A DNA stretch of 64,000 nt from Zhihengliuella flava (GTDB lineage: Bacteria; Actinomycetota; Actinomycetes; Actinomycetales; Micrococcaceae). Positions 2,617 to 63,493 of the stretch are shown here, in pieces; the first letter of the stretch is position 1; each line of letters begins with the position of its first letter. The notes beneath the pieces are model-generated. The model worked only from the letters and a program-made list of their open reading frames with translations, made no database searches and was not told where the DNA came from. The position numbers and the translations under genes were made by a program. Location: assembly GCF_015751895.1 (NCBI RefSeq), contig NZ_JADOTZ010000001.1, positions 1,736,001-1,800,000 of the forward strand. The letters run 5' to 3'.

Positions 2617-5166
<2,550 letters not shown>

Positions 5167-5177
5167 CTACGGACGCT

Positions 5178-5219
5178 GCGGCGCCCGGCGAGTCCCAGTG
5201 CGGACTCGGCGGGCGCCGT
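5178..5219 (+). terminator. Terminator after clpC
   Basis: An 18-bp stem (5178-5195 with 5202-5219, one mismatch and one wobble) with a 6-nt loop starts 11 nt after the clpC stop codon. There is no long U tract, as is common in high-GC Actinobacteria. Confidence 0.75.
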
Positions 5220-5258
5220 CGTCGTGTGCGGGTGCGGGCGCGTCCTAGGATGGACAGC

Positions 5259-5765
5259 ATGACTGACTTCACCATTCGCCCCGCCCGCACGAGCGACGTC
5301 TCCGCGATTCGTTCCTTGGTGCGGCCCTTGGCGGATGAGCGCATCCTGCTGGAAAAGGAGGCCGTGGCCTACTTTGAGTCGCTGCAGGAATTCGTGGTGG
5401 CCGAGGATGTGGCCGGCCGCGTGATCGGCTGCGGGGCGCTGCATGTGATGTGGGAGGACATCGCTGAGGTGCGCACGCTGGCCACCGATGCCTCCGCGCG
5501 CGGTCGCGGCGTCGGCAAGGCGCTCCTCGAGGCCCTGATGGACAACGCGCGGGCCCTCGGCGTGGACCGCGTGTTCTGCTTGACGTTCGAGGTCGACTTC
5601 TTTGGCCGCCACGGGTTCACCGTCATGGAGGACCAGACGGCCGTGGACCCGGAGGTGTACATGGAGCTCCTGCGCTCGACCGACGACGGCGTGGCAGAGT
5701 TCCTCGACCTAGCGCGCGTCAAGCAGAACACCCTCGGCAATACCCGCATGATCGCCCGCCTCTAA
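5259..5765 (+). CDS. GNAT N-acetyltransferase, ArgA-like (amino-acid N-acetyltransferase)
   Basis: A 168-residue single GNAT domain. The CoA-binding motif A is VRTLATDASARGRGVGKALL, and the C-terminal signature NTLGNTRMIARL is shared with the short N-acetylglutamate synthases of Actinobacteria (the Rv2747 type), which make N-acetylglutamate for arginine biosynthesis without an amino-acid-kinase domain. I start at ATG 5259: a TAGGAT hexamer (5246-5251) ends 7 nt upstream, which suggests a leaderless transcript, and upstream codons give no family-like sequence. No other arginine biosynthesis gene is near. The function is inferred from family resemblance; another small-molecule acetyltransferase remains possible. 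Confidence 0.75.
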   Translation: MTDFTIRPARTSDVSAIRSLVRPLADERILLEKEAVAYFESLQEFVVAEDVAGRVIGCGALHVMWEDIAEVRTLATDASARGRGVGKALLEALMDNARALGVDRVFCLTFEVDFFGRHGFTVMEDQTAVDPEVYMELLRSTDDGVAEFLDLARVKQNTLGNTRMIARL

Positions 5766-5885
5766 CTAGCCAAAGTTTTGCCGCCTAACGGTAGACGTTG
5801 GGGCGCGGGCGTGCCTATGGTGTTGGCACCGGGCCGGCTGCCGGCGCGGTAGAACAGACGTTCACGCGAGGAGGAGGTGGTCAGG

Positions 5886-6065
5886 ATGGGTCTAGGAGAC
5901 GCTCTGAACAACCTGGGCAACAAGGCTCAGCAGCTGAAGGATGAACACGGCGACCAGATCAACGAGAAGATTGACAACCTGCAGGAGCAGCACAGCGACA
6001 AGCTGGGCAAGCACGCAGACAAGGTCAACAACGCCGTTGATAAGGGCCAGGAACACCTGAAGTAG
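5886..6065 (+). CDS. Small MT0933-like (Rv0909-type antitoxin family) protein
   Basis: A 59-residue, very polar, probably all-helical protein (MGLGDALNNLGNKAQQLKDE) rich in Lys, Gln, Asn, Asp and His with heptad-like spacing, ending DKGQEHLK. It resembles the short Rv0909/MT0933 family that is annotated as an antitoxin. A clear AGGAGG 8 nt upstream of ATG 5886 decides the start over GTG 5877. No toxin candidate lies on either side, and the neighbours are a GNAT gene and convergent arsC. The antitoxin role is therefore doubtful; a stress-linked small protein of the CsbD kind is an alternative. Confidence 0.65.
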   Translation: MGLGDALNNLGNKAQQLKDEHGDQINEKIDNLQEQHSDKLGKHADKVNNAVDKGQEHLK

Positions 6066-6083
6066 CCCCCAGCGCGAGAGCAC

Positions 6084-7717: not shown

Positions 7718-9001
7718 TCAGGCGTTCGTGGAGCAGACTCCGGTGGCCGGGAGTTCGAGCTCCACGTGCTCCGCTGCGGGCTGGTCGCCGGCGAGGTGCG
7801 CTGCGATGGAGCGGACTTGCTCGTACCCGGTGGCCATGAGGAAGGTGGGGGCGCGGCCGTAGCTTTTCATGCCGACGATGAAGAAGTTCGGTTCAGGGTG
7901 GGCCAAGAGGGTGGCGCCGTGGGCCGGCACGGTGCCGCAGCTATGGAACTGCGGGTCGATCAGCGGTCCCAGCTCGCGCGGGGCCTCCATCACGGGGTCG
8001 AGTTCGAGCTGTAGCTCGCGCAGCAGCCCCAGGTTAGGGCGGAAGCCGGTCGCCGGGACCAGCGCGGCGACGTCGAACTCCTCGACCCCGTGCGGCGTGT
8101 GGGCGTGGACGGTGAGCCCGGAGGTGTGGGGGTGCACTGAGGCGACGGTGAATTGGGTGCGGAGCTCGATCCGGCCCGACTCCACCATGTTCTTCAGGCG
8201 AGTACCGAGGGCGCCGCGTTCCGGCAGGCCGTCGGCATCCCCGCCGCCATAGACGCGGGCCGGGCTGGGCGCGCGCAGGCCCCAGGTCACCCGCGTGCCG
8301 GGAACCTGGTCCACAAGCCGGCCGAGCGCCAGCAGCGTGTTTGCGGCCGAGTGTCCGCCGCCGATGACCAACGTGTGCTGCCCGGCGAAGCGGTCACGCT
8401 CTGCCCCTAGCACGTCCGGCAGGGCGGAGGTGACGACTCCTGCCGCGCGCGCCTCCTGCTCGCCGGGGACTTCCAGCCCGGACGCGCCGACGGGGTTCGG
8501 CTGTGCCCACGTTCCGGAGGCGTCGATCACGGCGCGGGCGGTGAGGTGGACGACGCCGTCGGCCGTCTCGGAGACGATGAGGAACGGGGCGTCGGCGCGG
8601 CCGAGGGTGCGCGTCGTATCCAGGCCGAGGCGGGACACGGCCGTCACGCGGTGGCCCGTGCGGAGCGAAGCGGCGATGGGCTCGGTGCCGGCCAGCGGTG
8701 CGAGGTACTGTTCCACGAGGTCGGTGCCGGTCGGCAGGCGCTTGGGGTGCGGTGGTTCCCAGCCGTGGGCGGCGAGCAGGCGCGCCGCGGCAGCGTCGAT
8801 GTTGTAGCGCCACGTGGAGAACGTCTTGATGTGGCCCCACTCGGCCACGGCGGCTCCGGCGGAGGGTCCCGCCTCCAGCAGCACGACGTCGATCCCACGC
8901 TCGATCAGGTGGGCGGCGGCGGCCAGGCCCACGGGGCCGGCGCCGATGATCGCGACCGGCAGCGCGGCGGCGTCGTGCTGATCTGTCCGCGGATGATCCA
9001 C
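7718..9001 (-). CDS. ArsO-like FAD/NAD(P)-dependent oxidoreductase of the ars operon
   Basis: A 427-residue flavoprotein with two dinucleotide folds: FAD-binding GAGPVGLAAAAHL near the N-terminus (about 20-32) and NAD(P)-binding GGGHSAANT near residue 215. This two-fold layout is that of flavin monooxygenases and of ArsO, a flavin-binding protein seen in Streptomyces ars clusters. The biochemical role of ArsO in arsenic metabolism is not well settled. It is the first gene of the ars operon, starting about 45 nt from the predicted -10, with AAAGGAG upstream of the ATG. Substrate is unknown; oxidation or reduction of an arsenic or thiol compound is a guess from context. Confidence 0.8.
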   Translation of the reverse strand: MDHPRTDQHDAAALPVAIIGAGPVGLAAAAHLIERGIDVVLLEAGPSAGAAVAEWGHIKTFSTWRYNIDAAAARLLAAHGWEPPHPKRLPTGTDLVEQYLAPLAGTEPIAASLRTGHRVTAVSRLGLDTTRTLGRADAPFLIVSETADGVVHLTARAVIDASGTWAQPNPVGASGLEVPGEQEARAAGVVTSALPDVLGAERDRFAGQHTLVIGGGHSAANTLLALGRLVDQVPGTRVTWGLRAPSPARVYGGGDADGLPERGALGTRLKNMVESGRIELRTQFTVASVHPHTSGLTVHAHTPHGVEEFDVAALVPATGFRPNLGLLRELQLELDPVMEAPRELGPLIDPQFHSCGTVPAHGATLLAHPEPNFFIVGMKSYGRAPTFLMATGYEQVRSIAAHLAGDQPAAEHVELELPATGVCSTNA

Positions 9002-9021
9002 CGACGGCTCCTTTCACCTAG

Positions 9022-9075
9022 GCATCGACGTTCATCGATGCTTCGAGTATGATCGGATTCATCGATACCTGTCAA
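9022..9075. promoter_or_regulatory. Divergent ars promoter/operator region
   Basis: For the minus-strand operon there is a perfect TTGACA -35 (9075-9070), an 18-nt spacer and CATACT (9051-9046). For arsR there is TATGAT (9048-9053) with a weak -35, TCGACG, 17 nt upstream (9025-9030). Overlapping these are an inverted repeat GCATCGA-N6-TCGATGC (9022-9041) and two copies of TTCATCGAT (9031-9039 and 9058-9066). These repeats are the best candidates for ArsR binding to both promoters. Confidence 0.65.
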
Positions 9076-9109
9076 TCTATCCGGCGTGGCCGGATCTGAA
9101 GGGAGGGCC

Positions 9110-9490
9110 ATGGTCCAGGTCATGACGGACCACGCCGCGCCGTGCTGTGTACCCGCCCCCGCGGCGGGAGCGCTGGCCGCGGAGGACGCGGCGCAGCTGG
9201 CGGCGCGATTCAAGGCGCTCGCCGACCCTAACCGGGTTCGCCTGCTGTCCCTCGTGGCCGCCGGTGAGTCGGGCGAGGCCTGCGTGTGTGACCTGACCGA
9301 GCCGCTACAGCTGGGCCAGCCCACCGTTTCCCACCACCTGAAAATTCTGGTCGACGCCGGTCTGCTCGCCCGCGAGAAGCGTGGGGTGTGGTCCTACTAT
9401 TCGGTGCTCCCCGCGGCCCTAGAGGACCTCGCGGGAGCTCTCCGGGGATTTGGCGCCGTCCCTCCCGCGCTCGGAAAGGATGCCTCATGA
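9110..9490 (+). CDS. arsR: ArsR-family arsenic-responsive repressor
   Basis: A 126-residue winged-helix repressor. The DNA-recognition helix lies in QPTVSHHLKIL (about 70-80). Candidate As(III) ligands are Cys58 and Cys60 in EACVCDL, the position of the classic ArsR metalloid site, and an extra N-terminal pair Cys12-Cys13 (APCCVPAP). I start at ATG 9110 because GGGAGG lies just upstream; an in-frame GTG at 9086 has no such site. It is divergent from the ArsO-like-acr3-arsC operon, and its stop overlaps the start of a second arsC (ATGA). Arsenite binding should release it from the shared operator at 9022-9075. Confidence 0.93.
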   Translation: MVQVMTDHAAPCCVPAPAAGALAAEDAAQLAARFKALADPNRVRLLSLVAAGESGEACVCDLTEPLQLGQPTVSHHLKILVDAGLLAREKRGVWSYYSVLPAALEDLAGALRGFGAVPPALGKDAS

Positions 9491-9900
9491 GCCACGACCG
9501 TCCCGCCGTCCTCTTTGTCTGTTCGAAGAACGGCGGCAAGTCCCAGATGGCCGCCGGATTGATGCGGCGTGAGGCCGGGGACGCCGTCGACGTCAGCAGT
9601 GCGGGAACCGCGCCGGGTTCGGCGATCAACGGCCTCTCGGCCGAGGTGCTCCTGGACCTGGGCGTCGATATTCGCGCTGAGACCCCGCGGCAGCTGACCG
9701 AGGAGGCGATGCGCGCGGCAGGGCTCGTGGTCATTCTGGGCACCGAGGCGCAGGTGGACCCGGTCGACGGCGTCGTGATCGAACGGTGGGAAACTGACGA
9801 GCCCAGCCTGCGCGGGATCGGCGGCCGTGAGCGGATGGAACTGGTCCGCGATGACATCCATGCCCGCGTGCAGAACCTGAAGGAGCGGTTGCTCGGTTAG
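9487..9900 (+). CDS. Arsenate reductase, single-cysteine (mycothiol transferase-like) type
   Basis: A 137-residue LMW-PTPase-fold protein. Its P-loop is CSKNGGKSQ: Cys12 is the only cysteine in the protein, and Lys18 stands where canonical CX5R enzymes have Arg. The downstream WETDEPS keeps the general-acid Asp region. One-Cys ArsC proteins of Actinobacteria (C. glutamicum ArsC1/ArsC2) form an arsenate-mycothiol adduct that is resolved by mycoredoxin, and the GGKSQ form of the loop is familiar in that group. It overlaps arsR by 4 nt and is thus arsenic-induced with it. Its stop overlaps that of the convergent gene at 9897. It complements the three-Cys ArsC at 6135-6530. Confidence 0.87.
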   Translation: MSHDRPAVLFVCSKNGGKSQMAAGLMRREAGDAVDVSSAGTAPGSAINGLSAEVLLDLGVDIRAETPRQLTEEAMRAAGLVVILGTEAQVDPVDGVVIERWETDEPSLRGIGGRERMELVRDDIHARVQNLKERLLG

Positions 9901-10478
9901 TGCTCCGCGTGGTGCGGCTCGGCGGAGGCGACCTCCGTCGGGGCGGGGCCCCTCGCCTCAGGTGCCGCGGAGTCCGTGGGATTGAGCTCGCCGCGCAGTT
10001 CCAGCAGAGTGGATCGGTAGGCCTCTGGGGCGAAGGAGAGCGCCTGGGCCCCGGCGACCGGGGTGAAGCGTGGTGCACCCTTGACGGTGTCCTCCCACGC
10101 GAAGTGGTCCCACGTGACCGCCTCCTGGTCGAAGTGGAGTTCGCAGGAGAGGTAGCCGCACGCCTCGGAGCGGCACAGCGGGCAAAACAGCAGTCCCACC
10201 CGGTGCGGGCCCGGACCCTGTTCGAGCCCCAGCAGGTGGTCAATCCGCAGGAGCCCGGCGGCCGGGAAGGTGGAGCGAAGATCCGCCATTTCTGCCGGCA
10301 TGTCCAGCGCCCCGGACCAGTCCCGCACCCATTGCTGGAGCGGTTGGTCGTTGATCTGGATGTTCCAGATGGTGAAGTGCTCCGGCTTCGTCGGCCGGCG
10401 GAACAGGCCGCGGCGCTTCTGCGCGCGGCGCGTTCCGGCCATCTCCTTGAAGGAGAGCACGTGTGGGCCGTCCATCAT
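9897..10478 (-). CDS. Conserved hypothetical protein with four-cysteine cluster
   Basis: A 193-residue protein of unknown function. A compact cluster, Cys99, Cys102, Cys107 and Cys112 in CPLCRSEACGYLSC, looks like a zinc knuckle. The N-terminus is basic (RRAQKRRGLFRRP), the middle is Trp-rich (FTIWNIQINDQ, QQWVRDWSG), and an Ala/Pro/Glu tail follows. The motif WDHFAWED and the repeated aromatic residues suggest a folded cytosolic domain. It overlaps the convergent arsC by 4 nt. ATG 10478 is preceded at 6 nt by CATACT (10485-10490, minus strand), so a leaderless transcript is likely; ATG 10475 is an alternative start. I cannot assign a function. Confidence 0.7.
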   Translation of the reverse strand: MMDGPHVLSFKEMAGTRRAQKRRGLFRRPTKPEHFTIWNIQINDQPLQQWVRDWSGALDMPAEMADLRSTFPAAGLLRIDHLLGLEQGPGPHRVGLLFCPLCRSEACGYLSCELHFDQEAVTWDHFAWEDTVKGAPRFTPVAGAQALSFAPEAYRSTLLELRGELNPTDSAAPEARGPAPTEVASAEPHHAEH

Positions 10479-10554
10479 TCACCTAGTATGCGTCCGACCG
10501 CCGGCAGAAGTGGGTTATTACGGCAGAAAAGTTCCGGTGGTTCCCCGCGCCGGC

Positions 10555-11781
10555 TCACCGGGACTCGCGGCCGACCCAAGCCAGCAGGCTCGCGACGGCG
10601 GCGCGTGTCGCCGTCGTCAGCGTCGGCTCCGGGACGGGGCCGAAGAAGGGCGAGTGGTTGATGGGCAGGTCCGTCTCCCCCTCGAAACCACCGAACATCC
10701 AGTAGACCGTCGGCACGCCGATCGCCGCCCCGAGATGGCCGAAGTCCTCCGACCCCATGAGCGGGCCGCTGCGGCGCACGTTCTCGCCGCCGAGGGCGTG
10801 CTCCAGCGCGGTCGTCACGCGCTCCGCCGCAGCCGGCTGATTATAGTTCTCCGGGAAGTCGTACAACGCTTCGATGAGCGGAGGCTCGGCGCCGGAGGCC
10901 GTGGCCTCGGCCTGCACGATTCGCTCGACCGCCGCCAGCACCTGGGCGCGCACCTCGGGTGTGAGCGTGCGGATGTTGAGGGTGAATTCGGCCTGATCGG
11001 GAATGATGTTCTCCTTCAGGCCAGCGTGGAATGTGCCGACGGTGACGACGGCCGGGCTCATCGGGTCCAGCTCGCGGGAGACGATCGTTTGCAGGCGGGT
11101 CACCATGGCCGCGCCCAGCACGATCGGGTCGATCGATTGCTGCGGTTGTGAACCGTGGGACTGCCGCCCGCGCACCACGACGCGGAGGGCGTCCGCCATG
11201 GCCATCGCGGTGCCGTGGCTGATGCTGATGGTTCCCGCGCGCTGCGGCATGACGTGCTGGCCGAGGACGACGGCGGGCCGGGGCGCCCGGTCCCAGAGGC
11301 CGTCGTCGACCATGGCTCGGGCCCCCGCGGCCGTCTCTTCACCGGGCTGGAAGATCAGGACCACGGTGCCGGACCACGCGCTGCGGTCGGCGTCGAGCAA
11401 GCGCGCGGCGGTGAGCAGAGCGGTCACGTGAGTGTCGTGGCCGCACCCATGCATGACGGGGACCTCGGTGCCGTCGGGCAGCGTGCCGGTGGCCGTGGAG
11501 GCGTACTCCAGCCCGGTGTCCTCGGCAATCGGGAGGCCGTCTGTATCGGCGCGGAAGGCCACCACGGGGCCCTCGCCTTCGCGGAGGATGCCGACGACGC
11601 CGGTGCCTCCGCAGCGGAAGTTCTCCACGCCAAAGGAATCGAGTTCTGCCGCGATGAAATCGGCGGTGGCGTGCTCCTGCATGCTCAGCTCGGGGTGTGC
11701 GTGCAGATGCCGGTACACGCCCAGCAGCTGCTCCACCGTGCTGGCGTCGAGGGGGCGAGTGGGATCACAAGTCATAGACAT
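10555..11781 (-). CDS. M20-family amidohydrolase (hippurate hydrolase/N-acyl-amino-acid deacylase-like)
   Basis: A 408-residue metallohydrolase of the M20D group, which cleaves the amide of N-acyl amino acids or indole-acetyl conjugates. Metal-site motifs are HGCGHD at 111-116 (with the characteristic Cys113), the preceding FRADTDGLP at about 76-84, and the catalytic Glu of QPGEETAAGA at about 150. The lid domain follows in the middle. AGGAG lies 9 nt upstream of the ATG. The gene is 16 nt behind two membrane-protein genes on the same strand, suggesting that these import its substrate. A divergent amidase and an Lrp-type regulator lie next to them. The exact substrate cannot be read from the sequence. 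Confidence 0.9.
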   Translation of the reverse strand: MSMTCDPTRPLDASTVEQLLGVYRHLHAHPELSMQEHATADFIAAELDSFGVENFRCGGTGVVGILREGEGPVVAFRADTDGLPIAEDTGLEYASTATGTLPDGTEVPVMHGCGHDTHVTALLTAARLLDADRSAWSGTVVLIFQPGEETAAGARAMVDDGLWDRAPRPAVVLGQHVMPQRAGTISISHGTAMAMADALRVVVRGRQSHGSQPQQSIDPIVLGAAMVTRLQTIVSRELDPMSPAVVTVGTFHAGLKENIIPDQAEFTLNIRTLTPEVRAQVLAAVERIVQAEATASGAEPPLIEALYDFPENYNQPAAAERVTTALEHALGGENVRRSGPLMGSEDFGHLGAAIGVPTVYWMFGGFEGETDLPINHSPFFGPVPEPTLTTATRAAVASLLAWVGRESR

Positions 11782-58264: not shown

Positions 58265-59245
58265 ATGACCGAGAACTTCGATCGCACGAACGCCGATGAG
58301 GCGGGCGCGGGACAAAAAGCTGACGGGATCCTCGTGGGAATCGACGGCTCCGAGGCCGGTAAATGCGCTTTGAGCTGGGCTGCCGACGAGGCGCGACGCC
58401 GCAATTGCCCGCTCAATATCGTGACCGCTTACACCATTCCCGTCTTCGCCGCCTCCAGCATGGATGCCGGCTACGCCACGCTTGACGACGACGTCATTCG
58501 TGAGGGCGCCGAAGAAGTGCTGCGTGAGGCAATTCACGCCGCAGACCTCTCGGGGCTCGACGTCCGCCAGCGCATCGAATCCGGTGACCCGTCGGGCGTG
58601 CTGCTGGATCTGAGCGAGGACGCGGACCTCGTCGTGGTGGGCACCCGGGGCCGCGGCGGATTCGTGGGCCGCATGCTCGGATCAGTCAGCTCGGCCCTGC
58701 CGGCCCACGCGAAGTGCCCCACCGTGGTGGTGCCGCAGTGCGTGGCGGAGGTTCCGGCGGATGCTCCGCAGCGGCGCGACGTCGTCGTGGTGGGTGTGGA
58801 CGGTTCCGACCGGGCCCGGCACGCCGTGTTGGTGGCGGCCGAGCGCGCGCAGCAGCGCGGCGTGCCGCTGCGCGTGGTGTGCGGGATCCCTCCGGTCAGC
58901 GGCGCGCTGGCCTGGATGCCCGCGACGGTGGATCAGGAGGCGCTCGTGGCGGACATCGAGGTCCAGCTGGGCAACGGCAAGCGGTGGCTGCAGAGCCATT
59001 TCCCGGAGCTGACCATCGAGACGGAGGCCGTGAGTGGCCCGCCCATCGAGATGCTGCTGGAGGAGTCCGAGCGGTCCCGGCTCACCGTGGTGGGCACCCG
59101 CGGCCGCGGCGGGTTCGCGGGCATGCTGCTCGGGTCCACGAGCCAGGGCGTGCTGCATCATGCGCGCGGCCCGGTGATGGTGGTGCCGGACCGAGAGGAT
59201 CCGCGGCTCGCTTCCCGCGCCGACTTCGACACCCCGGCCGCATAG
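58265..59245 (+). CDS. Universal stress protein, two UspA domains
   Basis: A 326-residue tandem Usp protein. Domain 1 (about 20-155) starts GILVGIDGSEAGKCALSWAADEARRR and ends GTRGRGGFVGRMLGSVSSALPAHAKCPTVVVP. Domain 2 (about 170-310) starts VVVGVDGSDRARHAVLVAAE and ends GTRGRGGFAGMLLGSTSQGVLHHARGPVMVVP. Both carry the ATP-binding G-x-x-G-x9-G(S/T) motif, as in mycobacterial tandem Usps induced by stress and hypoxia. GAAGGAG lies upstream of the ATG. It is divergent from the purine permease with about 100 nt between starts, and followed by a terminator. Confidence 0.94.
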   Translation: MTENFDRTNADEAGAGQKADGILVGIDGSEAGKCALSWAADEARRRNCPLNIVTAYTIPVFAASSMDAGYATLDDDVIREGAEEVLREAIHAADLSGLDVRQRIESGDPSGVLLDLSEDADLVVVGTRGRGGFVGRMLGSVSSALPAHAKCPTVVVPQCVAEVPADAPQRRDVVVVGVDGSDRARHAVLVAAERAQQRGVPLRVVCGIPPVSGALAWMPATVDQEALVADIEVQLGNGKRWLQSHFPELTIETEAVSGPPIEMLLEESERSRLTVVGTRGRGGFAGMLLGSTSQGVLHHARGPVMVVPDREDPRLASRADFDTPAA

Positions 59246-59262
59246 CGCGGCTGGGGTGGCCC

Positions 59263-59299
59263 GTGCGGTGGGCCTGACCTGCGGGCCGGCCCACCGCAC
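59263..59299 (+). terminator. Terminator after the universal stress protein gene
   Basis: A perfect 12-bp stem (59263-59274 with 59288-59299) with a 13-nt loop, 17 nt after the stop codon. Confidence 0.7.
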
Positions 59300-59393
59300 C
59301 GGCGCCTGAGCAGCGGCTGGGAGTTTGGGGTGGTGGCCGCTGATCTGGGACGCAGCTGTTGTCTTCGGTGTCACGCGCACCACACAATGAACT

Positions 59394-60530
59394 ATGACAG
59401 CGCTGATGAGGTCCCTTGAAACAGCAGTTCCACCCACCGTGATGGTTCAGACCGAAGTCCGCGATGTGTTCAAGTCCCAGCCGGGGCTGACGCGGCTGGG
59501 GCAGCGGCTGGTGTCCGCGGCCTTCGATTCCTCCGGGATTGATACCCGCTACACCGCGGTGGAGGAACTGACCGTGGACGACCGGCGGGAGAATCCCGTC
59601 TTCTTTGACGGGTCCACGCAGCAGATCCTGAACCCGGGAACGAAGGCCCGCAACGAGGTCTACGCGGAGGCCGGCACCGACCTCTTCGTCACCGCCGCGC
59701 GGCAAGCGCTCGACGCCGCCGAGGGCGTCGGCCCCGAGGACATCACCCACGTCGTCACGGTCTCCTGCACCGGTTTTTTCAATCCGGGCCCCGACTACAA
59801 GATCGTCCGCGCGCTCGGATTGCGCCCCTCCGCCCAGCGTTACCACCTCGGCTTCATGGGGTGCTACGCCGCCTTCCCGGCCCTGCGCTCGGCCGCCGCC
59901 TACTGCGCGGCGGACCCGAACGCCGTCGTCCTCGTGGTCAGCGCCGAGCTGTGCTCGCTGCACGTGCGCTCCTCCAACGACCCGGACACGATTGTGGGCA
60001 CCTCCCTGTTCGCCGACGGCGCCGCGGCCGCCGTGATCTCCGCGCGGGAGGACCTGCCGGCGCCCGCCGGCTCCTACCTCACTCTGGATTACTTCGAAAC
60101 GACCCTCACGCCCGTGGGCGAGGACTCGATGGCGTGGAACATTGGCGACGAGGGATTCGAGATGGTCCTCGGCAACTACGTCCCGCACATCATCGACGAT
60201 CACATTGTGGGCGCGCTCGAGCCGCTGCTGGCCCGCGATGAGTCCCTCCGCGGCGTCGACTACCCGGAGATTGAGCACTGGGGCATCCACCCCGGCGGGC
60301 GCAGCATCCTGGATAAGGTCCAGGCCCGGCTGGGCCTCAGCGACGGGCAGCTGGAGCCGGCGCGGCAGACGCTGCGGGCCTACGGGAACATGAGTAGCGC
60401 CACCGTGATGTTTGTCCTGAAGAACATCCTCTCCGCACCCAGCGAGCCGGGCGCGGAGCGGGTGTGCTCCATGGCGTTCGGGCCCGGCCTCACGGTCGAA
60501 ACCGCGCTCCTGACCAAGGTCACCGCTTGA
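59394..60530 (+). CDS. Type III polyketide synthase
   Basis: A 378-residue chalcone-synthase-fold enzyme that condenses malonyl-CoA with a starter acyl group. The catalytic triad is complete: Cys157 (YHLGFMGCYAAFPAL), His299 (WGIHPGGRS) and Asn332 (AYGNMSSATV); the C-terminal loop is AFGPGLTVE. Its form resembles the bacterial alkylresorcinol/alkylpyrone group, which uses a fatty acyl starter. The methyltransferase and FAD monooxygenase genes follow at once, like the srsABC operon of Streptomyces griseus, so the product is probably a methylated, hydroxylated phenolic lipid or quinone. The ATG lies 5 nt after CACAAT (59383-59388, weak -35 TTGTCT), possibly leaderless. Confidence 0.93.
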   Translation: MTALMRSLETAVPPTVMVQTEVRDVFKSQPGLTRLGQRLVSAAFDSSGIDTRYTAVEELTVDDRRENPVFFDGSTQQILNPGTKARNEVYAEAGTDLFVTAARQALDAAEGVGPEDITHVVTVSCTGFFNPGPDYKIVRALGLRPSAQRYHLGFMGCYAAFPALRSAAAYCAADPNAVVLVVSAELCSLHVRSSNDPDTIVGTSLFADGAAAAVISAREDLPAPAGSYLTLDYFETTLTPVGEDSMAWNIGDEGFEMVLGNYVPHIIDDHIVGALEPLLARDESLRGVDYPEIEHWGIHPGGRSILDKVQARLGLSDGQLEPARQTLRAYGNMSSATVMFVLKNILSAPSEPGAERVCSMAFGPGLTVETALLTKVTA

Positions 60531-61217
60531 ATGGGCTTTCTGACCCGCCGCGACGAGCAGGCCACGGAGCAGATGGACCGGCCGGATTGCGACCCGGTGC
60601 TGCTGAACAACACCTACCGGCAGTTCCGCCTCATCAACGCCGTGGTGGCCGGGTGGCGGCGCACGTGGGCACGGCAGATTCGGCCCGTGCTCTCCACGTC
60701 CCGAACCACCCGGCTGCTCGACGTCGGCTCCGGGGCGGGGGACATCCCGCGCGCGTTCCTGCGGTGGGCCGCCCGGGACGGTGTGGCGCTGGAGGTCACG
60801 GCCATCGATCCCGACGAGCGCGCCCACGCGTACCTCGCGGCGCTGCCGCCGGCGCCCGGGTTCACGGTCCGCCGCGCGCACACGGCGGACCTGGTGGCCG
60901 AGGGGGCGGAGTACGACGTCGTCACGTCCAATCACGTACTCCACCACCTCAGTGCCACTGACTTGGCCTCGCTCCTGACGGATTCGGAGGCGCTCGCCGG
61001 GCGGCTGGCCGTCCACAGTGACATCGCGCGCACCCGGCTCGGCTACCCGGCGTTCTCCGTGGCGACGCTTCCGTTTCCGCGGTCCTTCATTCGCGAGGAC
61101 GGGCTGACGTCGATCCGCCGCAGCTACCGCCCCGAGGAACTACGCGCCGTCGTCCCCGCAGGCTGGCGCGTCGAGGCGCAGCGCCCCTTTCGGACCCTGC
61201 TGATCCACCGTGGCTGA
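60531..61217 (+). CDS. SAM-dependent methyltransferase of the type III PKS operon
   Basis: A 228-residue class I methyltransferase. Motif I is RLLDVGSGAGDIPRAFL, the acidic end of strand 2 is VTAIDPDERAHAYL, and motif post-I/II is EYDVVTSNHVLHHLSATDLASLL. The fold resembles UbiE-type enzymes and the protein lacks a membrane segment. The ATG directly follows the PKS stop with no gap, and it overlaps the monooxygenase gene by 8 nt, so it should act on the same pathway. In the related srs operon the methyltransferase O-methylates the resorcinol; C-methylation is also possible. The order of its action is unknown. Confidence 0.88.
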   Translation: MGFLTRRDEQATEQMDRPDCDPVLLNNTYRQFRLINAVVAGWRRTWARQIRPVLSTSRTTRLLDVGSGAGDIPRAFLRWAARDGVALEVTAIDPDERAHAYLAALPPAPGFTVRRAHTADLVAEGAEYDVVTSNHVLHHLSATDLASLLTDSEALAGRLAVHSDIARTRLGYPAFSVATLPFPRSFIREDGLTSIRRSYRPEELRAVVPAGWRVEAQRPFRTLLIHRG

Positions 61218-62391
61218 GCCCCGCCCGGCCGAACCGCGCCTGCCCGCACGCGTGGACGTGGCGGTGGTCGGCGCCGGCCCCGTGGGCCTTTATACGGCGA
61301 TCCTGCTGGCCGAGGCTGGCGTCCGCGTCGTCGTCCTGGAGCAGCGCAGGGAACCTGGCACGCAGTCGCGGGCCATCGGCATCCACCCGCCCGCGCTGGC
61401 GGCGCTGGATCGTGCCGGCGTCGCCGGCGACCTGGTGCGTCGCGGCGTGGCGATCCGCCACGGCGAGGCTCGCCGTCGCGGCCGGCTGATCGCGCCCTTG
61501 GCGTTTGAGGCCGTGCCTGGGGCGTTCCCTTTTGTCCTGGCGCTCCCGCAGCGGGAGACCGAACGCGTCCTGGCGGACCGTCTCGCCGCCGCCGGCGTGG
61601 TCCCGCTGCGCGGCGTTCAGGTGCACCAGCTGTGGCAGGAGCCGGGCGGGGTGCACGTGCGTTCGGCCCGCGGCGAGGTGGAGGCGAGGTTCGTGATCGG
61701 CGCGGATGGCGCCCGCAGCACCGTCCGGGCGGCGGCGGGGATTGGAGCCCGCGTCCGCGAATATCCGGACACGTACGTCATGGGCGATTTCCCGGACCAC
61801 GACCTCTCCGGGGCCGAGCGGCGGGCGGTGCTGTATCTGGAGCGCCAGGGCGTCGTCGAGTCCTTCCCCTTACCCGGCGGCGTCCGCCGCTGGGTGGTGC
61901 GCACGCCGCGGCTCGAGGGTGAACCCACGGCGGTGGCGCTCGCGAGGATGGTCGAACACCGCACCGGGGTCGGCATCGACCCGGCGGGAAACACCATGCT
62001 CAGCTCCTTCGCCGTGCGCCGCCGCATCGCGGACCGCTTGGTGTCCGGTCGGATCGCGCTGGTGGGGGACGCGGCCCACGAGGTCAGCCCCATCGGCGGG
62101 CAGGGCATGAACCTGGGATGGCTGGATGCGGCGCGGCTGGCCCCGCTGGTCTCCGCCGTGGTGGGCGAGGGGCTGGGGCACGACGCCACCCGTCGCCTCG
62201 AGCGGTACGGCGCCGAGCGCCGTCGTGCGGCCCAGCGCGCCGCGCGGCAGGCGCACGTGAACATGATGTTGGGCCGGCCGCTTCCGGCTCCCGCGGCCGC
62301 GGTCCGCGACGCGGCGCTGACCCGCCTCGCCGCTCACGGCCGGTGGCACGACGCCGTTGCGCGCGTGTTCACGATGAGCGAGCTGGCCTAG
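61210..62391 (+). CDS. FAD-dependent monooxygenase of the type III PKS operon
   Basis: A 393-residue aromatic hydroxylase of the PHBH-like group. FAD motif GAGPVGLYTAILLAEAG near the N-terminus, the DG motif GADGARSTVRAAAG, and the GD motif LVGDAAHEVSPIGGQGMNLGWLDAA are all present. It starts with GTG and overlaps the methyltransferase gene by 8 nt. In such operons the enzyme hydroxylates the ring made by the type III PKS, giving a hydroquinone that oxidises to a quinone. The stop lies 4 nt from that of the convergent oxidase gene. No resistance, transport or regulatory gene lies in the cluster. Confidence 0.9.
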   Translation: MAEPRPAEPRLPARVDVAVVGAGPVGLYTAILLAEAGVRVVVLEQRREPGTQSRAIGIHPPALAALDRAGVAGDLVRRGVAIRHGEARRRGRLIAPLAFEAVPGAFPFVLALPQRETERVLADRLAAAGVVPLRGVQVHQLWQEPGGVHVRSARGEVEARFVIGADGARSTVRAAAGIGARVREYPDTYVMGDFPDHDLSGAERRAVLYLERQGVVESFPLPGGVRRWVVRTPRLEGEPTAVALARMVEHRTGVGIDPAGNTMLSSFAVRRRIADRLVSGRIALVGDAAHEVSPIGGQGMNLGWLDAARLAPLVSAVVGEGLGHDATRRLERYGAERRRAAQRAARQAHVNMMLGRPLPAPAAAVRDAALTRLAAHGRWHDAVARVFTMSELA

Positions 62392-62395
62392 CGGT

Positions 62396-63493
62396 TCACG
62401 GCGAATCCGCCGCGCCGAGGCGGGACTCGGGCCGCAACAGCTCAGGTACGACGCCGGTCAACGCGGCCTCCGCCAGCGCCTCGCCCAGCGCGGGAGCCTG
62501 TTTGAAGAGATTGTGCCCGGCGATGGCGGTCACGGCGCCGTCGGACCATGCCCCCACGCCGTCGTCGCCCCACGGCACCGTCGTGACCCAGCAGTGCACG
62601 TGCCCCCTCGGCGTGGGGTCGAGGCCGGGCAGGGCGCGCCGGACGTAGGCGGCCGTGCGTTCGGTCAGCGCGTTCAGCTCCGCCGGATCGTCGAGTCCGC
62701 GGGGACCCGCCGGCCGCGTCGTGTCGCTGAGCCCGATTGAGTAGCGGCGGTTGTCCTGGCTGGGGGCACCGTAGACTCCGGACTCGCCGAAGGCGTCGCT
62801 GCCGTCCTGGAACGTGGGGAGCGGGTCTTTGCCCGGGTGGCGGACGGCGAAGGCGAGCCTGACGTGGGCGCTCAGCTGCACCGGGAGGTCGAGTCCGGCG
62901 CCGTGCGCTAGCTCGGCCGTGCCCCGTCCGGCGCACAGCACCACGTGATCGAACGTTTCGGCGCCGGTTCCCGTGCGCACCTCCGCGGCGCCGGTGGCAG
63001 TGCTACGGACGGAGAGGACGTGGTCGTGAACCACGTCGGCCCGGAGCGCGCCGGTCAGGGCGTCGATGGCGGCGAGCGTGTGGATGGTTCCGCCGTGCAG
63101 GTCGACCATGGCGGGGCCCGAGTAGTCGGCCACGAGCGGGAACCGCTCCTGCAGGGCCTCGCGGTTCAGCGGCGCCGTGGGCACGTGGTCCAGCTGGTCG
63201 AGGAGCTTCAGCTTTTCCGGCACCCCGGGGCCGATCGCGATGGCGCCGCCGGGGGAGATGAGTGGTTGGCCGAACACCTCGGACCACGTGCGCCACAGCT
63301 GCCGGCTGTGGCTGACGAACCGGGCCAGCCGGGCGTCGTCGTGCGCGTGCCGGAAGATGCGGGACTCGCCCGCGGATTGCCCGCCGCCGGGCGCCCCCGA
63401 TTCAAAAATGCGGACCTCGGCGCCGTGCTGGCGCAGCGCCCAGGCCGTTGCCAGCCCCACGATTCCTGCTCCGACTACTGCTATGCGCGTCAT
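62396..63493 (-). CDS. FAD-dependent amine oxidase (DAO family; sarcosine or N-methyltryptophan oxidase-like)
   Basis: A 365-residue DAO-type flavoenzyme that oxidises a secondary or primary amine. The dinucleotide fold is RIAVVGAGIVGLATAWALRQHGAEV, followed by the MSOX-like SAGESRIFRHAH. A Cys in GHVHCWVTTVP sits where monomeric sarcosine oxidase links FAD covalently. The end GHNLFKQAPALGEALAEAAL corresponds to the family's C-terminal FAD segment. ATG 63493 lies 7 nt after TAGGCT (63501-63506, minus strand) with no ribosome site. It is convergent with the PKS operon and is unlikely to belong to it. Confidence 0.87.
   Translation of the reverse strand: MTRIAVVGAGIVGLATAWALRQHGAEVRIFESGAPGGGQSAGESRIFRHAHDDARLARFVSHSRQLWRTWSEVFGQPLISPGGAIAIGPGVPEKLKLLDQLDHVPTAPLNREALQERFPLVADYSGPAMVDLHGGTIHTLAAIDALTGALRADVVHDHVLSVRSTATGAAEVRTGTGAETFDHVVLCAGRGTAELAHGAGLDLPVQLSAHVRLAFAVRHPGKDPLPTFQDGSDAFGESGVYGAPSQDNRRYSIGLSDTTRPAGPRGLDDPAELNALTERTAAYVRRALPGLDPTPRGHVHCWVTTVPWGDDGVGAWSDGAVTAIAGHNLFKQAPALGEALAEAALTGVVPELLRPESRLGAADSP

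Follow-up and report, generated by a model that had tools for sequence, protein, structure and literature searches.

Organisation of the Locus

The window analysed here is a stretch of 64,000 nucleotides (nt) from the genome of Zhihengliuella flava (Micrococcaceae; contig NZ_JADOTZ010000001.1, positions 1,736,001 to 1,800,000), and its subject is an operon of three intact open reading frames (ORFs) that lie head to tail on the + strand at 59394–62391, in the order type III polyketide synthase (PKS), methyltransferase (MT) and flavin adenine dinucleotide (FAD) monooxygenase. Judged from the predicted proteins, the operon probably encodes, and we say so with considerable reserve, a pathway to a methylated, ring-hydroxylated alkylresorcinol or alkylquinone, a membrane lipid. 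The MT belongs to the S-adenosylmethionine (SAM)-dependent enzymes. The genes are as follows.

59394..60530, + strand: type III PKS, 378 aa, ATG start; Cys157, His299 and Asn332; Trp248 at the resorcinol-associated position
60531..61217, + strand: class I SAM methyltransferase of the NF004851/PRK06202 family, 228 aa, ATG start; 313 bits; AlphaFold2 pLDDT 93.8
61210..62391, + strand: FAD aromatic monooxygenase, FAD_binding_3, UbiH/PnpA-like, 393 aa, GTG start; AlphaFold2 pLDDT 93.6

An earlier note on this DNA had reported three genes joined by a zero gap and an 8-nt overlap, and the ORF coordinates agree with it: the gap at the PKS/MT junction is 0 nt, and the MT and FAD genes overlap by 8 nt. 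A single PKS match was obtained in the source genome, which measures 2.9 Mb and is 99.8% complete.

The Polyketide Synthase

Both chalcone/stilbene synthase domains are matched in the PKS by Pfam (Chal_sti_synt_N, 95.7 bits; Chal_sti_synt_C, 86.6 bits), and Cys157, His299 and Asn332 stand where the earlier note had placed them, so that the protein has the N and C domains and the Cys-His-Asn triad of a complete type III PKS. Among the NCBIfam matches listed for it none reached its cut-off; an identity with DpgA was rejected on the score for NF042429 (154 bits against a cut-off of 425). The best PDB match by sequence is 4b0n.

The PKS tree comprised 59 rows, and 12 of its 56 inner branches are open. 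Streptomyces griseus SrsA, ArsB/C and HidC are not among the rows; L151 served as the stand-in for SrsA because an isoprenylcysteine carboxyl methyltransferase (ICMT) gene and a flavoprotein gene lie downstream of its PKS gene. Tetrahydroxynaphthalene synthase (THNS), CylI, Steely1, L128, L147 and L152 form long branches of uncertain place. The window PKS groups first with its own genus (100/97) and next with further actinobacteria and with Deinococcus and Balneolota, 30 rows that together form a starred clade (100/98); the addition of a Psychrobacter plasmid and L238 gives a starred clade of 32 rows (99/87), which contains no THNS, chalcone synthase (CHS) or PKS18 rows. PKS18, 4b0n, Steely1, CHS and a rice chain are placed outside the 32-row clade yet nearer to the window PKS than THNS, PKS11, CylI and the SrsA-like rows, all of which lie beyond starred branches. 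Identity to the window PKS is 28% for both PKS11 and THNS (1u0m), 29% for PKS18, 31% for the SrsA-like L151, 32% for the plant CHS 7bur and 38% for Paludisphaera.

A tetrahydroxynaphthalene/flaviolin pigment pathway of the RppA type would be in keeping with the presence of a type III PKS and a monooxygenase in an actinobacterium, and the Pfam model FAE1_CUT1_RppA also matches the PKS (54 bits). However, the phylogenetic check that the earlier note had called for places the enzyme outside the RppA/THNS type, starred branches lying between it and the THNS row (itself a long branch) at the low identity given above, and it has Trp where THNS has Tyr at position 248. We regard such a pathway as highly improbable.

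Trp248 of the window PKS aligns with Trp230 of PKS11. The available part of PMC5916927 treats Trp230 of M. marinum MMAR_2474 as the counterpart of the ArsB Trp that is required for resorcinols and attributes this resorcinol-associated Trp to SrsA, FtpA, PKS10 and PKS11, and excerpts of PMC9927152 number the same resorcinol-determining residue W281. Position 248 is Trp in all 26 rows of the PKS alignment A1; it is Leu in PKS18, 4b0n and CylI, Tyr in THNS, Gly in CHS, Met in the rice chain and Val in L150. The residue sets the window PKS apart from all of these but not from the pyrone-forming PKS11.

This last resemblance bears on an alkylpyrone pathway, in which long-chain alpha-pyrones would be O-methylated by the MT and hydroxylated by the flavoprotein. 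A Bacillus pair of a type III PKS and a methyltransferase reportedly yields alkylpyrones methylated on oxygen. PKS11, with the same Trp, is labelled an alpha-pyrone synthase in the PDB, and PKS18 and 4b0n, the latter being the best PDB sequence match, stand nearer to the window PKS in the tree than the SrsA-like rows do. Against this, both PKS18 and 4b0n carry Leu and not Trp at position 248, and a partner of the phenol-hydroxylase type suits a phenol better than a pyrone. We consider the alkylpyrone pathway unlikely, though by no means negligible.

The Tailoring Enzymes and Their Counterparts in Known Systems

The MT belongs to the NF004851 family, the curated cut-off of which is 243 bits, and its SAM motif DVGSGAG is intact. 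Pfam returned four class I methyltransferase models for this protein, and ICMT is absent from the list. Neither the sequence nor the fold searches separated C- from O-methylation. In the FAD enzyme the motifs GAGPVG, DGARS and GDAAH are intact and FAD_binding_3 matches at 179.9 bits. The NCBIfam matches listed for it include PRK08244 (163 bits, cut-off 644) and rifampin-monooxygenase and UbiH models, none of which reached its cut-off. For its predicted structure the best Foldseek match is the p-nitrophenol 4-monooxygenase PnpA (TM 0.87), and the 50 matches listed include PgaE and PHBH.

The earlier note had taken these genes for the same set as srsABC. Its assignment to the phenolic-lipid/quinone type of gene set is supported, and gene order and general chemistry are indeed shared, but the MT is of another family and the FAD enzyme of another subfamily. 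The comparison with S. griseus SrsABC and with PkqABC was made via L151 and the literature. Like the window, srsABC of S. griseus and pkqABC of Mycobacterium smegmatis show the order PKS–methyltransferase–flavoprotein with SAM and FAD chemistry, and their PKSs have the same resorcinol-associated Trp (PMC9927152, in the part available). In contrast, the identity of the PKSs is 28–31%, L151 and PKS11 standing across starred branches; the srs/pkq MT is an ICMT (PF04140), whereas that of the window is a class I enzyme scoring 313 bits with NF004851; and the L151 flavoprotein is closest to geranylgeranyl (GG) reductase (GG-red-SF, 112 bits, cut-off 158.8), whereas the window enzyme is UbiH/PnpA-like (PRK08244, 163 bits). 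Since the broad Pfam family FAD_binding_3 is common to the two flavoproteins (52 bits in L151, 180 bits in the window), they are distant relatives. Orthology with srsABC was rejected for both tailoring genes on the family models.

Among six short neighbour ORFs, ICMT (PF04140) adjoins the PKS in three (L145, L147 and L151), and no Pfam match was obtained for the other three (L136, L142 and L144). Marisediminicola is a genus of Microbacteriaceae. As its srsB is described as an ICMT in the available text of PMC6669644, srs-type and window-type operons may share one family.

Three-gene operons with an alkylresorcinol-forming PKS are also found as hidABC in cyanobacteria and as MT–oxidoreductase–PKS operons in Planctomycetota. 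According to the accessible portion of PMC10896814, the PKSs of planctomycete MT–FAD–PKS operons, when expressed, make alkylresorcinols, as does the cyanobacterial HidC; methylation is presumed to fall on carbon for the G. maris MT and on oxygen for HidA. HidA, HidB and HidC were compared by description only. The MT of the Paludisphaera (planctomycete) operon reaches 232 bits with NF004851, just below the cut-off, and so stands near the family of the window MT. In the planctomycete L157 the order is MT–FAD–PKS and the FAD enzyme is GG-reductase-like, whereas in the window the PKS comes first and the FAD enzyme is UbiH/PnpA-like; for hid the order hidC>hidA>hidB is also reported (PMC8086630). 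The planctomycete PKS is 38% identical to that of the window.

Deinococcus plasmid operons resemble the window in their order PKS–MT–FAD, present in both loci fetched, in an MT of the same family (318–335 bits) and in a UbiH-like FAD enzyme, and the PKSs of seven plasmid records are 55–60% identical to the window PKS; the literature searched yielded no characterisation of these operons. Unlike the window, plasmid 3 of D. radiodurans (L153) has glycosyltransferase and phospholipase D-like genes 13 nt downstream of the operon (7974–10714); these perhaps glycosylate or export the lipid.

A Deinococcus enzyme also underlies a chalcone/flavonoid explanation. In its available part, PMC10386165 attributes a CHS to Deinococcus sp. 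43, and the gene on which its flavonoid pathway rests may encode a PKS of the window clade; the CHS primer, as read here, encodes MSSVTV, which occurs in a few A1 rows and is not clade-specific. However, the 32% identity to the plant CHS 7bur, Trp in place of Gly at position 248, and partner genes that encode an MT and a UbiH-type hydroxylase leave a chalcone pathway scarcely credible.

Distribution and Conservation of the Operon

A PKS match at E <= 1e-3 was present in 138 of the 197 sampled genomes of the family and in 24 of its 32 genera, six of the matches being weak (E > 1e-8). Fifty Micrococcaceae loci chosen over the PKS-bearing genera comprised 41 with PKS–MT–FAD, 6 with PKS–MT and 3 with PKS–FAD. 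This set partly overlaps the 80 named loci, which are the best of at least 594 stretches of the genome collection that encode a relative and which include 69 with PKS–MT–FAD, 1 with this set and an extra FAD gene, 8 with PKS–MT and 2 with PKS–FAD. Complete operons occur, among others, in Arthrobacter, Pseudarthrobacter, Cryobacterium, Agromyces, Microbacterium, Clavibacter and Kineococcus, and also in two Balneolota and one Bacteroidetes metagenome-assembled genome. The five loci of f4, another family of the order (presumably Microbacteriaceae), are all complete; among 25 further loci from the phylum the MT was found in none and a weak FAD match (55–61 bits) in four. The pairwise distances of PKS, MT and FAD proteins co-vary (Spearman 0.77–0.84 over 22–26 loci), and none of 2000 permutations gave a value as high. 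Given these distances and the exact PKS–MT–FAD order in 41/50 and 69/80 loci, the gene order is conserved far beyond chance.

The operon is therefore not peculiar to the source genome and is widespread in its family. The available part of PMC11078813 lists T3PKS among the six cluster types that predominate in Micrococcaceae, and excerpts of PMC7438953 report that 79% of the Microbacterium genomes analysed (70 per the abstract) have a type III PKS and name FadD15 ligases as likely starter suppliers.

The PKS of L238 (IMGVR_UViG_3300021425_004462, 5001–6071) lies on a contig filed as viral and was the sole IMG/VR match. It was rejected as a viral PKS because PSCyt2, DUF1501 and ribonucleotide reductase genes adjoin it; the contig is probably a misfiled planctomycete chromosome.

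Operons without the MT or the FAD Gene

The three examined loci of genus g7 are PKS–FAD, and a relocated MT was sought in this genus and rejected, the best match over 11 genomes reaching only 37.6 bits. The eight named loci without the FAD gene belong to Brevibacterium, Kocuria, Motilibacter, Tersicoccus, Herbiconiux (two) and Microbacteriaceae (two). Among 14 FAD-less loci, nine have a nitroreductase-family gene (PF00881; BluB/Acg-like, below model cut-offs) in the fetched stretch, within 2.5 kb in six and further off in three, and none of 121 loci with the FAD gene has one within 2.5 kb; the Fisher value of 4e-7 for this association is untrustworthy, the loci being related and partly duplicate. 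In Kocuria coralli and Motilibacter the nitroreductase gene lies about 0.35 kb downstream of the MT and in the same orientation, and in Tersicoccus it is 3.3 kb away; it was not found in the FAD-less loci L197, L227, L230, L232 and L234. All 11 PKS-bearing genomes of genera g6 and g16 have the gene, at a distance from the PKS of up to 0.9 kb in seven, up to 3.5 kb in three and 68 kb in one, and none of the 11 has a FAD match at E <= 1e-60. In L113–L116, L222 and L226 a well conserved nitroreductase-family protein accompanies a PKS–MT pair that has no FAD gene. Because the gene is convergent in the g6 loci examined and the FAD-less lineages are few, replacement of the oxidase by a nitroreductase is a lead and not a result. 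Another monooxygenase could also stand in, since some of the 11 FAD-less genomes hold full-length matches to the FAD profile A3, the highest at 186 bits; most intact operon copies score 380–545 bits, and frameshifted or partial ones less. FMN reductase genes (one with a luciferase-like gene) beside the two FAD-less Herbiconiux operons were rejected as a replacement two-component monooxygenase; they look like neighbours typical of the genus, as Herbiconiux solani (L184) has both together with the FAD gene.

Within the alkylresorcinol/alkylquinone pathway favoured here, the product could serve as a respiratory polyketide quinone at low oxygen, a function reported from Mycobacterium smegmatis and Streptomyces sp. 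MNU77. The order of the genes and their general chemistry agree with this role (PMC9927152, in part), and the nitroreductase in nine FAD-less loci, six of them with the gene close by, looks as if an oxidation step were retained. The tailoring enzymes are, however, unlike those of srs-type loci, and the nitroreductase link comes from few lineages; in seven other genomes of the 197 the gene is far from the PKS. A FAD match at E <= 1e-60 is also present in six of these; the remaining genome, G118, has its FAD match in two pieces 2.5 kb past the MT in L110. A respiratory role is thus possible, but more doubtful than probable.

The Predicted Promoter and the Flanking Genes

Two promoter-like elements precede the PKS gene.

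59359..59364, + strand: −35-like element TTGTCT; TTGT conserved in 23/23 loci
59383..59388, + strand: −10-like element CACAAT, 5 nt ahead of the PKS ATG; many relatives have AAGAAT

The spacing in the window is TTGTCT, 18 nt, CACAAT, 5 nt, ATG. Conservation was assessed on 23 loci, drawn from nine Micrococcaceae genera after a wider alignment had been viewed, with mononucleotide shuffles, which do not consider kinship, as the control. TTGT at −36 to −34 from the PKS ATG is present in all 23 (shuffles: mean 1.7, maximum 7) and AAT at −8 to −6 in 20 (mean 0.24, maximum 3), and a Shine-Dalgarno-like 4-mer upstream of the PKS was found in none of the 23. Such a 4-mer occurs in 10 of 139 of all rows, and in 2 of 51 Micrococcaceae rows over a narrower stretch. 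Many other genera of the family are without the two elements; TANNNT stands close to the start codon in 13 of the 51 Micrococcaceae rows. A generic sigma-70 scan gave no site within 59200–62500, which counts against a consensus promoter. A transcript starting at the PKS ATG would be the simplest reading of the conserved predicted promoter, and the suggestion of a possibly leaderless start made in the earlier note gains from this conservation in nine genera.

As a mark of a regulon the pattern was rejected: in five genomes it matched the PKS promoter once each, and a single extra site was found only in G053 and in G099, so that no clear regulon emerges. In L081 the −35/−10 regions upstream of the PKS form, by eye, an inverted repeat CCATTGT...ACAATGG, which could be operator and promoter.

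Upstream of the PKS, after a gap of 148 nt, lies a universal stress protein (Usp) gene, and downstream of the FAD gene a convergent DAO oxidase gene. Neither is a transporter or a regulator, as the earlier note had also said of the operon's surroundings. The GC content climbs along the operon from 68% in the PKS through 72% in the MT to 75% in the FAD gene (window 67.5%).

The Proposed Pathway

All three genes would be translated from one leaderless mRNA starting at the PKS ATG. The PKS would load a fatty acyl-CoA, extend it with malonyl-type units and, through an aldol condensation, cyclise the tetraketide to an alkylresorcinol or alkylresorcylic acid, of which the class I MT may then methylate a ring carbon or oxygen. 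The UbiH/PnpA-like flavoprotein would use NAD(P)H and O2 to hydroxylate the phenol ring, and the resulting hydroquinone may autoxidise to the alkylquinone. The complete catalytic and cofactor motifs, Trp248, the PnpA-like FAD fold, the conserved operon with its co-varying distances and the conserved promoter favour this pathway, as do the alkylresorcinol-forming PKSs of planctomycetes and HidC and the proximity of the planctomycete MT to NF004851.

Several observations weigh against it. The window PKS is at most 39% identical to every tree row outside the 30-row clade, and no characterised member was seen within that clade, so that the starter and extender are guesses. Trp248 is a weak marker, as Trp occupies this position in 52 of the 59 tree rows (in L152 by uncertain alignment), the pyrone-labelled PKS11 among them. 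MMAR_2474, with this Trp, yields pyrone, resorcinol and phloroglucinol (PMC5916927, in part), and CylI, which PMC8086630 places among the alkylresorcinol-forming enzymes, has Leu, so that the Trp is not required by every resorcinol enzyme. The fold search with the MT returned mixed class I matches, and Baeyer-Villiger and rifampin monooxygenases are also among the enzymes that the FAD enzyme resembles. In the available text of PMC10896814 the authors leave open what the G. maris oxidoreductase does, the operons of some genera are without the MT or the FAD gene, and in the open-licence literature no product or function was found for this operon.

By analogy, the proposed alkylresorcinol/alkylquinone pathway would work like srs/pkq and hid, yet as a separate branch with other tailoring enzymes. 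A broader proposal, which we hold with low confidence, is that of a horizontally shared operon lineage (Micrococcales, Deinococcus, Balneolota) with a leaderless promoter, which would reach a product of the srs/pkq kind, an alternative respiratory quinone, via a non-homologous MT and a different oxidase exchangeable for a BluB/Acg-like enzyme of the nitroreductase family.

Biological Meaning

That type III PKS clusters are common in Micrococcaceae was already known; what distinguishes the operon described here is, as far as family models and alignments indicate, its own set of tailoring enzymes within a known chemical kind. On the strength of cluster similarity, such clusters sometimes receive the label alkylresorcinol (PMC6669644 and PMC11078813, in the parts available). 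As the finishing enzymes of this widespread version differ from those of srs, srs should not be taken as a guide to its end product. Should that product be a quinone, Deinococcus and a large group of soil bacteria would possess a second redox lipid in their membranes, which we did not find reported in the literature searched.

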